This document shows, in pieces, positions 7,327 to 9,037 of a DNA stretch of 64,000 bases. Every line of letters begins with the position of its first letter. Positions within the stretch are counted from its first letter, which is position 1. This DNA comes from Aurantiacibacter sp. MUD61 (GTDB taxonomy: Bacteria; Pseudomonadota; Alphaproteobacteria; Sphingomonadales; Sphingomonadaceae), in contig NZ_CP115446.1 of NCBI RefSeq assembly GCF_027912455.1, positions 1,573,501-1,637,500 on the forward strand. The letters are read 5' to 3'. Both the position numbers and the translations under genes were made by a program. A model generated the notes under the pieces. The model was not told the origin of the DNA. It saw only the letters and a list, made by a program, of their open reading frames with translations, and searched no databases.

Positions 7327-7716
7327 TTAGCCTCTCACCTGTGTGTAGGGAAGCGGCAAAAAACCATCCGGCGTATCGCGCCACCACGTCGTCTCACCCG
7401 GAGCAACGATCGCCCAGATTGTGTTGTCACCCGCTGCCATCTGCGCGTCGGTTTCAGAGGGATAGGAGGGGCCATTCGGGTGGGAGTGATAGTAGCCGAT
7501 GACCTGCGGGCCGCCCTCACGCTCGGCGCGGTGGGCGTTAATCAGGGTCTGCGGGTCGACTTCAAAATGCGTTGCGGGGGTTGGGTGGACGTTTTGGGCC
7601 GGGATAAGGCCAGTGACTTCGGTGCCGTTTCCGGTGAGAATGCCGCAGCACTCGCTAGGGTGGGCGTTTTGGGCCTCGAGGATAAGGCCAGCGTGAACTT
7701 TGTTAGGAACCACCAC
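7327..7716 (-). CDS. M67 family metallopeptidase, possible independent start inside the fusion
   Basis: The peptidase part alone would be 129 residues, the usual size of bacterial M67 (JAMM/MPN+) proteins, if translation begins at GTG 7716 or GTG 7713. A CAGGG sequence six bases before GTG 7716 can serve as ribosome binding site, and that sequence belongs to the inverted-repeat arm. JAMM enzymes cleave isopeptide or peptide bonds; bacterial M67 proteins have been linked to cleavage of ubiquitin-like or sulfur-carrier proteins. Catalytic Glu, the HxH pair, Ser and Asp are all present. This entry records an alternative start of the frame described above. Confidence 0.5.
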   Translation of the reverse strand: MVVPNKVHAGLILEAQNAHPSECCGILTGNGTEVTGLIPAQNVHPTPATHFEVDPQTLINAHRAEREGGPQVIGYYHSHPNGPSYPSETDAQMAAGDNTIWAIVAPGETTWWRDTPDGFLPLPYTQVRG

Positions 7717-8019
7717 CGGTTGCCCTGAGCTTGTCGAAGGGCTGCCTTTGCTTTTTGCGTAGCGCGAAATCGCGTCCCAATCGCCACGGATCAGCGCCAG
7801 CTTCTTGCGGCGTGACCAGCCTTTAATCTGTCTCTCGGCCTTTTTCGCCTCTTCTCGCGTTACAAACTCTTCGGACCAAACCAATTTGACCGGCAGAAAA
7901 TCGCGCGTGAAACCGGGAATTTGGCCGGTTTCGTGCTGCCATATGCGGCGCTCAAGATCATCAGTATGTCCGGTGTAAAGTTTGCCCGCACGGCAGTGGA
8001 GGATATAGGCCCAGAACAT
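7327..8019 (-). CDS. GIY-YIG nuclease fused in frame to M67 (JAMM) peptidase
   Basis: An uninterrupted 230-residue frame with two unrelated domains. Residues 1-91 are a small GIY-YIG nuclease domain: WAYILHC and LYTGHTDDLERRIWQH give the tandem tyrosines and catalytic Arg, and ERQIKGWSRRKK gives the metal-binding Glu. Residues 92-101 (SPSTSSGQPV) are encoded by one arm of a 30-bp inverted repeat. Residues 102-230 are a Mov34/M67 metallopeptidase with Glu in HPSECCGIL and the zinc motif HSHPNGPSYPSETD. ATG at 8019 matches the usual GIY-YIG start. Small GIY-YIG proteins normally end near the repeat, so the fusion looks like the result of insertion of the nuclease cassette upstream of an M67 gene. 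Whether the fused protein is made or only its parts cannot be told. Confidence 0.8.
   Translation of the reverse strand: MFWAYILHCRAGKLYTGHTDDLERRIWQHETGQIPGFTRDFLPVKLVWSEEFVTREEAKKAERQIKGWSRRKKLALIRGDWDAISRYAKSKGSPSTSSGQPVVVPNKVHAGLILEAQNAHPSECCGILTGNGTEVTGLIPAQNVHPTPATHFEVDPQTLINAHRAEREGGPQVIGYYHSHPNGPSYPSETDAQMAAGDNTIWAIVAPGETTWWRDTPDGFLPLPYTQVRG
7716..7745 (-). repeat. Left arm of 30-bp inverted repeat
   Basis: Plus strand begins CCGGTTGCCCTGAGCTTGTC; it is the exact reverse complement of 8044-8073. The arm is read through in frame by the GIY-YIG gene and encodes the linker SPSTSSGQPV. Within the arm GCCCT and AGGGC can pair. Confidence 0.92.
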
Positions 8020-8043
8020 AGCACTGTTTGAGCTAAGAGAAGT

Positions 8044-8073
8044 GCAGCCCTTCGACAAGCTCAGGGCAACCGG
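8044..8073 (+). repeat. Right arm of 30-bp inverted repeat
   Basis: Plus strand begins GCAGCCCTTCGACAAGCTCA. It is identical, over 30 bases, to the complement of the left arm. Its outer end supplies two bases of the GGAG sequence that precedes the TTG start proposed for rluD. Confidence 0.92.
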
Positions 8074-8083
8074 AGTTTTTCGC

Positions 8084-9037
8084 TTGAAATCAGCCCAAAC
8101 CCTCACCGGAGTTATCCACACCGCCACGCGGATGGACAAGGCGCTCGCCGAAGTCACCGATCTCTCTCGCGAGCGGATCAAGGCATTGATTGCCGAGGGT
8201 AAGGTCGAGGTGGGCGGACAAACCGCCACCAGTCCCTCTGCCAAAGCTCAAGTGGACCAGAGCTTTTTGATCCACATTCCGCCCCCAAGCGACCCACAGG
8301 CTTATCCACAGGACATCCCCCTGACGGTCGTCTTCGAGGATGAGCATCTGATCGTGGTCGACAAGCCCGCGGGCATGGTGGTGCATCCCGCTGCGGGTAA
8401 TCCCGACGGGACGCTGGTGAACGCTTTGCTGCATCATTGCCGCGGCCAGCTTTCCGGGATCGGCGGTGTTGCGCGGCCCGGCATCGTGCATAGGATCGAC
8501 AAGGATACCTCCGGCCTCCTCGTCGTCGCCAAGAGCGATGCCGCGCATGAGGGGCTGGCCAGGCAGTTCGCCGATCACTCGCTCGAACGAGCCTATTTCG
8601 CCGTCTGCGGCGGCCATCCCAATCCTTCCGCTGGCACGGTTTCGGGGCGGCTTGGCCGATCGGACACCAATCGCAAGAAAATGGCTGTGCTTCCGGACGA
8701 CTCGAAGCGCGGGAAACATGCCGTCACGCACTACACGACGGTGCAGCGGCTGGACCACGCAGCGCTCGTCGAATGTCGTCTCGAAACAGGGCGCACCCAC
8801 CAGGTGCGGGTTCACCTTGCGTCAATCGGTCATTCGCTATTAGGGGATCCAGTATATGGGCGCACACCAGCACCACTCAGGTCGACGATAAAAGCCTTGG
8901 ATTTCAAGCGTCAGGCTCTGCACGCAGCGACTCTCGGCTTCGATCATCCCGTCACCGGTAACCAATGCCGTTTTTCGAGCGAAATACCTGCCGATATGAC
9001 GGAACTAATCGACCAACTAGGTGGTTCTAATCGATGA
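8084..9037 (+). CDS. rluD: 23S rRNA pseudouridine synthase, RluD type
   Basis: A protein of about 317 residues that isomerises uridines in 23S rRNA (helix 69 for RluD). An N-terminal S4 RNA-binding domain (MDKALAEVTDLSRERIKALIAEGKVEVGG) is followed by the RluA-type catalytic domain with HRIDKDTSGLLVVAKS near residue 135, whose Asp is the catalytic residue, and GRTHQVRVHLASIGHSLLGDPVYG. No ATG lies at the expected place. TTG at 8084 has GGAG eight bases upstream and gives a normal family N-terminus; a GTG at 8042 would translate the inverted-repeat arm as QPFDKLRATG. The natural start was probably altered when the cassette inserted. Confidence 0.9.
   Translation: MKSAQTLTGVIHTATRMDKALAEVTDLSRERIKALIAEGKVEVGGQTATSPSAKAQVDQSFLIHIPPPSDPQAYPQDIPLTVVFEDEHLIVVDKPAGMVVHPAAGNPDGTLVNALLHHCRGQLSGIGGVARPGIVHRIDKDTSGLLVVAKSDAAHEGLARQFADHSLERAYFAVCGGHPNPSAGTVSGRLGRSDTNRKKMAVLPDDSKRGKHAVTHYTTVQRLDHAALVECRLETGRTHQVRVHLASIGHSLLGDPVYGRTPAPLRSTIKALDFKRQALHAATLGFDHPVTGNQCRFSSEIPADMTELIDQLGGSNR

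Follow-up and report, generated by a model that had tools for sequence, protein, structure and literature searches.

Between an rluD-type gene and an M67 gene, the window (the whole 64-kb stretch of DNA analysed here) holds a small GIY-YIG nuclease gene enclosed by two copies of one inverted repeat. The locus raises the question of whether gene and repeats form a single element, and whether the nuclease acts on the repeats that enclose it. The features concerned are collected in Table 1.

Table 1. Features of the repeat-enclosed GIY-YIG unit and its neighbours (positions in the window).
Feature	Position	Strand	Remark
Whole unit, repeat-GIY-YIG-repeat	7716..8073	.	358 bp
Left terminal repeat, 30 nt	7716..7745	.	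Outer end faces the M67 gene
Right terminal repeat, 30 nt, exact inverted copy	8044..8073	.	Outer end faces rluD
GIY-YIG nuclease domain	7753..8019	-	89 aa from ATG 8019
Continuous frame of GIY-YIG, repeat-coded linker and M67 (JAB) protein	7327..8019	-	
rluD-type pseudouridine synthase, divergent neighbour	8042..9037	+	Right of the unit

A first-pass annotation of this DNA had described a GIY-YIG gene contained within an exact 30-bp inverted repeat. The repeat and the enclosed domain stand as described: the two arms are 100% complementary with 298 nt between them, and the domain matches PF01541 at 57.8 bits (cut-off 22.6), reading from its ATG on the minus strand. The reading frame, however, does not stop inside the unit. 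It remains open past the unit, with the left arm read in frame (as SPSTSSGQ) into the M67/JAB gene, and the open frame as a whole spans 7327-8244. The GIY-YIG and M67 parts report equal open-frame lengths in 10 of the 11 rluD/M67 loci that have the same orientation, and GIY-YIG, linker and M67 may be made as a fusion protein from a single frame. At the other end of the unit, both the listed GTG start of the rluD-type gene and its longest frame begin inside the right repeat. An in-frame TTG at 8084 seems to stand for the ATG of the orthologues, and insertion of the cassette may have changed the start of this gene.

Both arms read CCGGTTGCCCTGAG and lack a CGTC tag. Their core, CCTTCGACAAGCTCAGG, occurs in two places in the window, i.e. 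the arms themselves, when up to 3 mismatches are allowed, against an expectation of 0.14; in 0 of 100 shuffles did it occur twice or more. With a length of 358 bp the unit compares with a median of 390 bp for the other units of the genus. The window's genome contains two GIY-YIG domains, that of the unit and one in a 759-aa frame, which we infer to be UvrC.

The suggestion that the core belongs to a dispersed repeat proved correct. It is present in 35 of the 40 genomes of the genus, and the 2.97-Mb genome of the window holds 29 copies at no more than 1 mismatch, 17 of them exact, with 0 matches to the reversed control pattern. Twenty of the 29 copies have an inverted partner (up to 3 mismatches) within 100 bp, and all of these are oriented ends-outward like the cassette, the members of the short pairs lying 33-83 bp apart. 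Two further copies are the cassette arms and the other 7 are without a close inverted partner, although one of them has a partner 109 bp off in the opposite arrangement. CGTC can be read in 18 of the 29 dispersed copies; arms and copies together carry CCG..GCCCTGAGC or CGTC-type tags, and the GTAG tag was not found among them.

The copies have arms of two classes: class A reads CCGTTCGT-core-GGGCG, and class B reads CCGGTTGC or CCGATTGC-core-GGGCTGC and then has a run of pyrimidines. Both ends of the cassette are of class B, and the sequence just inside the arms is common to the cassette and the short class B pairs. Class A repeats (CCGTTCGT..GGGCG) are common in the window's genome (copies among loci L002-L029), which has no GIY-YIG cassette of class A; they are orphan non-autonomous repeats.

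Nuclease genes and their flanking repeats in the genus and the phylum

Protein matches at E <= 1e-5 were found in 29 of 40 genomes of the genus, at 80 places, all of which were examined. We scored the flanks by local alignment of the 200 bp upstream of a gene against the reverse complement of the 200 bp downstream, and counted a gene as paired at a score of at least 13. By this score, inverted repeats lie on either side of 70 of the 80 small GIY-YIG genes. Of 109 control ORFs from the same loci (called mechanically, with a minimum of 120 aa), 0 reach it (Fisher p 2e-41), so that the expectation that such genes would lie between inverted copies beyond chance was borne out. Shuffled flanks reach the score in 1 of 400 cases, and shifted windows do so in 3 of 80 cases in the genus (450-650 bp out), in 1 of 102 in the phylum and in 2 of 68. 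Mismatched flanks, taken from different genes, reach it in 249 of 1600 cases, which is high as expected because the genes share repeat families. The tagged end of the repeat points outward from the gene, and only outward, in 52 of the 70 genus units; in none does it point only inward, and 18 are undecided.

Relatives of the nuclease turned up in 156 of 249 genomes of the phylum, which were drawn evenly and searched with a profile. Among the matches listed, 110 loci were taken (30 plus 80, the latter comprising 60 from the top of the list and 20 from lower down). Leaving out 3 members of the genus, and then 4 of the remaining 107 in which the gene is not near the centre (L143, L150, L169 and L205), gave 103 loci, and 77 of these 103, among the matches listed, have inverted flanking repeats; the tag points outward only in 41 of the 77 and inward only in 8. 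Loci from named genomes are paired by the same score in 57 of 80 cases (outward only in 40 of the 57, inward only in 6), and loci from viral contigs in 11 of 14. The seven lowest-scoring phylum loci examined (71 bits or less), which we take to be YhbQ-like, serve as an internal control, and 0 of the 7 have a flanking pair.

Judged by record titles, loci with inverted flanks come from alpha-, beta-, gamma-, delta- and zetaproteobacteria, Planctomycetes, Bacteroidetes and others, many of them being metagenome bins. Named relatives of the nuclease are for the most part sphingomonads, and the window's DNA is itself likely to be from one. One is a Neisseria gonorrhoeae locus (L280), where a relative of the nuclease has the palindrome TTCCCGC..GCGGGAA in both flanks. 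In two plasmid-collection records (H1 and H2) no feature is annotated under the nuclease match, the gene table there being incomplete.

The association of repeat, GIY-YIG gene and repeat is therefore real and general, and represents an apparently undescribed kind of minimal bacterial element. The analogy drawn in the first-pass annotation with REP elements and their transposases, a GIY-YIG enzyme taking the place of the transposase, holds across repeat families and phyla (77/103 among the matches listed; 57/80). Genes without a flanking pair by score (10 of 80 in the genus, 26 of 103 in the phylum among the matches listed, and 23 of 80 in named genomes) nevertheless count against the explanation that we favour below, as do the units whose tag points inward only (8 of 77 and 6 of 57).

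Most of the repeat families that flank the GIY-YIG genes share a CGTC tag, a stem starting with AT and a CCA-type tail. Nine repeat labels were used, among them CCTGAGCTTGTCGAAGG, CGTCATTGCGAG..GAAGCAATCCA, CGTCATTCCCGCG..GCGGGAATCCA, CGTCATCCTGAACTTGTTTCAGGATCCA, CGTCACCCCGGACTTGATCCGGGGTCC and CGTCATCCCAGCGAAAGCTGGGATC. On a tree of 76 genus proteins (4 of the 80, shorter than 60 aa, were left out), the ten labels, i.e. nine families plus none, need 13 changes where the minimum is 9; shuffled labels need 50.5 changes and 0 of 200 shuffles are as low as 13. The tree rests on few columns, however, and with close relatives in it shuffled labels are easily outdone. Where a genome has several such genes (22 genomes), the labels are all different in 14 and one recurs in 8.

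The 80 named-genome loci, which were picked solely by protein resemblance to the CGTCATTCCCGCG subfamily, give a stronger check. The palindrome TTCCCGC..GCGGGAA lies within 250 bp of the gene in 57 of them and on both sides in 34; it is found in 6 of the 7 genus loci of that subfamily and in 0 of the 73 genus loci of other subfamilies. Up to 250 bp from the gene it has a density of 2.84 per kb, which falls to 0.09 per kb at 400-1000 bp. At the level of sequence, covariation shows the association of nuclease with repeat and the specificity of that association.

Copy numbers, counted with repeats within 250 bp of a nuclease excluded, also vary with the gene. Among genomes at least 90% complete, the core has 12-121 copies outside the cassette in the 16 with a full-length cognate nuclease vs 0-12 in the 17 without (p 6e-7); the 12-copy genome without a full-length gene, G004, has kept a gene fragment. 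Over all 40 genomes the two ranges overlap, and the incomplete G014 (84%) has 32 copies with no detected gene. Two more repeat families covary with their gene, CTGAACTTGTTTCAG (p 7e-4) and CATTGCGAG..GCAATCCA (p 6e-4).

The covariation has clear exceptions on both sides. Repeats of the TTGCGAG type occur without a detected cognate gene in G027 (25 copies), G003 (11) and G006 (10), where either the nuclease gene has been lost or a relative falls below the threshold, and four of the ten carriers of this type have only 0-2 copies outside the cassette. Similarly, G006 has 8 CTGAACTTG repeats without the gene, and two of the nine carriers have none outside the cassette. The direction of cause may also be the reverse, with nuclease genes persisting only where repeats abound.

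Orthologous sites with and without the cassette

Comparison of empty and occupied orthologous sites between rluD and the M67 gene had been proposed as a check, and both states were found. The count covers 30 loci (two further matches had no locus): the nuclease is present in 14, a gap of 28-136 bp without nuclease lies in 15, and in one rluD is out of reach. The core is absent from all 15 empty gaps, also when 4 mismatches are allowed. In 3 of the 14 occupied loci the nuclease gene is turned round; these three come from subclades farther away (60-69% identity) and may equally well be separate insertions or inversions. The copy in the window is an old insertion common to other species of the genus and no recent jump. 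In two rluD/M67 loci (L130 of G037 and L141 of G027) a short repeat pair seems to have replaced or invaded the cassette at its right end.

The close relative G013 has a second cassette that the window's genome (G000) does not have: 397 bp in the one correspond to 6-9 bp in the other, between flanks that are 91-92% identical. No repeat is left at the empty G000 site, and the G013/G000 junction gives no clean target-site duplication.

Among Sphingobium plasmids, those of TomTYG46, 71 and 73 carry the cassette in the fnrL intergenic region, and those of TomTYG64, 65, 72 and 74 do not. The empty sites of TomTYG64 and TomTYG74 contain one palindrome, built of the outer halves of the two repeats; those of TomTYG65 and TomTYG72 contain no palindrome or repeat. 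A similar hybrid palindrome is found in Sinorhizobium K101, at the site that is occupied in S. meliloti Ak57. Such solo palindromes of two outer half-repeats (L366, L368 and L370), all at sites where relatives have the cassette, could be excision scars, slippage products or former targets. On pSymB of S. meliloti Ak57 (L360), a cassette with a truncated GIY-YIG gene is followed directly by a complete cassette of the same family. Presence and absence at orthologous sites, one of the marks of a transposable element, are thus both observed. Each repeat family usually has one or two cassettes per genome, however, which goes against the favoured explanation to the extent that self-copying of the cassette must be rare; the age of the window's insertion goes against it as well.

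Proposed mechanism and alternative explanations

We consider it probable that the arrangement of terminal repeat, GIY-YIG gene and inverted terminal repeat is a minimal autonomous element, and that the short REP pairs are its non-autonomous, REPIN-like derivatives. The terminal repeats would be of REP type, in most families CGTC-tagged palindromes. The nuclease would recognise its own repeat family, the specificity being that indicated by covariation, probably with the repeat folded as a hairpin or cruciform. Two repeat types fold well as hairpins (z -4.62 and -4.03), and folding is weak for the window arm (z -0.96), which also lacks the CGTC tag, and for the TTGCGAG type (z 0.02), points that speak against the scheme. 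The enzyme would then cut at or in both inverted repeats, as suggested by the GIY-YIG fold, its conserved residues, R25 and E62 among them, and the likeness of the model, in fold comparison, to Slx1-type structure-specific nucleases (I-TevI is also among the matches, and all Z are under 8). The cassette or a short pair would thereby be moved or copied to a new site, a step that we propose because of the dispersed pairs, the covariation in copy number and the occupied, empty and turned-round orthologous sites. Loss at a site could leave one hybrid palindrome of the two outer half-repeats, as the hybrids in two host groups suggest.

The first-pass annotation had proposed that the nuclease may recognise the repeat and so help the unit to spread or persist. 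None of the outcomes that it named as refuting this idea was observed. The family-specific match supports the first part (13 vs 50.5 changes), while cleavage of the repeat and transposition of the unit by the nuclease are steps that we infer. On this scheme the GIY-YIG enzyme would partner CGTC-type repeats as RAYT partners GTAG repeats, the two folds being unrelated, and the nuclease is a strong candidate for the spreader of a repeat class reported without an enzyme. A more far-reaching version is plausible, but we hold it only tentatively: GIY-YIG alone, working without HUH, DDE, serine or tyrosine chemistry, might transpose a large class of minimal elements that extends across phyla. It would cut hairpins or cruciforms near the centre of the palindrome, excision would leave a double-tagged hybrid solo palindrome, and the enzyme would make and spread CGTC REPs, dRS3 of Neisseria among them and perhaps also the RPE of Rickettsia.

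GIY-YIG is a homing-nuclease fold, with I-TevI among the fold matches, and the gene could code for a homing endonuclease that stands on its own and inserts into repeats or repeat pairs already there, the repeats being a mere target spread in some other way; the single palindrome at the empty sites of TomTYG64, TomTYG74 and Sinorhizobium K101 could be that target. We regard this as unlikely, as there is no repeat at the 15 of 15 empty rluD/M67 gaps, at the G000 site or in TomTYG72 and TomTYG65, and the repeats therefore came or left with the gene; moreover, repeat numbers go up and down with the cognate gene, and the window's genome has no RAYT that could spread them. It is also unlikely that the host has domesticated the nuclease for processing or resolving repeat hairpins, the enzyme co-evolving with the repeats without moving them. 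Movement is indicated by presence and absence within the genus and on related plasmids, by the occurrence of a family at several unrelated sites and by the two orientations found at one site, and a host enzyme would have no need of tight repeat flanking, even though the rluD/M67 gene is common to many species, shares one frame with M67 in 10 of 11 same-orientation loci, and has a parallel in RAYTs, which PMC8266576 likewise calls domesticated.

Movement by another transposase acting in trans on the repeats and on the GIY-YIG gene, with the gene as a passenger, is very unlikely. A broad spectrum of transposases is suggested as possibly mobilising CGTC elements in passages of Di Nocera et al. 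(PMC3733652), but the one family searched, the RAYT family PF01797, has no match in the window's genome and is absent from 37 of the 40 genomes of the genus (present in 3), yet the core is found in 35 of the 40; a passenger, furthermore, should not match the repeats family by family. That the arrangement is due to chance or to regulation, i.e. that the repeats are terminators or that the genes merely lie in repeat-rich regions, is scarcely credible given the controls (0 of 109 ORFs; 3/80, 1/102 and 2/68 shifted windows) and the matching by subfamily, common though such repeats are in intergenic DNA according to parts of PMC3733652.

Comparison with known systems

Passages of Di Nocera et al. 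(2013, PMC3733652) describe CGTC REPs from all orders of alphaproteobacteria examined, with CCA-type tails and dimers, and count dRS3 of Neisseriae (CGTC-1) and RPE-4/RPE-6 of Rickettsia among them; in these passages the repeats are apparently without a dedicated transposase and unassociated with transposase genes. The string 'GIY' is absent from the text of that paper, the terms GIY, nuclease and RAYT are absent from the 2025 RepRanger paper, and in the literature searched we found no earlier report that links GIY-YIG to REPs. If every repeat family has an enzyme matched to it, how CGTC REPs arise and spread could be tested directly. The REP/RAYT paradigm would gain a second enzyme class of unrelated structure, and a role would be at hand for many genes known only by the annotation 'GIY-YIG nuclease family protein'.

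From GIY-YIG homing endonucleases of the I-TevI type the present unit differs in having no intron and no DNA-binding tail that we could see, and in its paired REPs at the ends and its association with dispersed repeats. The nearest sequences with solved structures are of the UPF0213/YhbQ type (1zg2 and 1ywl), but the presumed YhbQ-like loci are paired in 0 of 7 cases. Unlike the Slx1/HIGLE structure-specific nucleases, the protein has no partner domain, and it may act on REP hairpins.

Most of the repeat families described here resemble CGTC REPs in their CGTC tag, AT-starting stem and CCA-type tail. They differ in having a GIY-YIG partner, none being reported in the passages of PMC3733652 concerned, and in that the window arms are without the CGTC tag. 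For this last reason the window repeat is not filed as a CGTC REP, despite the tag in 18 of 29 dispersed copies and although relatives of its nuclease sit between CGTC REPs.

The closest parallel is with REPtrons (GTAG REPs with the RAYT or TnpA-REP transposase) and REPINs. According to PMC3116915, PMC8266576 and PMC3733652, these too place a small nuclease gene between inverted REPs, have short inverted REP pairs scattered through the genome, keep the gene at low copy number, and show the enzyme evolving together with its repeat group. The window's genome has this architecture, with a nuclease gene between inverted repeats and dispersed inverted pairs alongside it. The enzyme, however, is GIY-YIG and not HUH/Y1, the tag is not GTAG, and the RAYT family is absent from the genome. 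Because an HUH enzyme and a GTAG tag were looked for and not found, the unit is no member of REP/RAYT, but it is the REP/RAYT system that it most resembles in its working.
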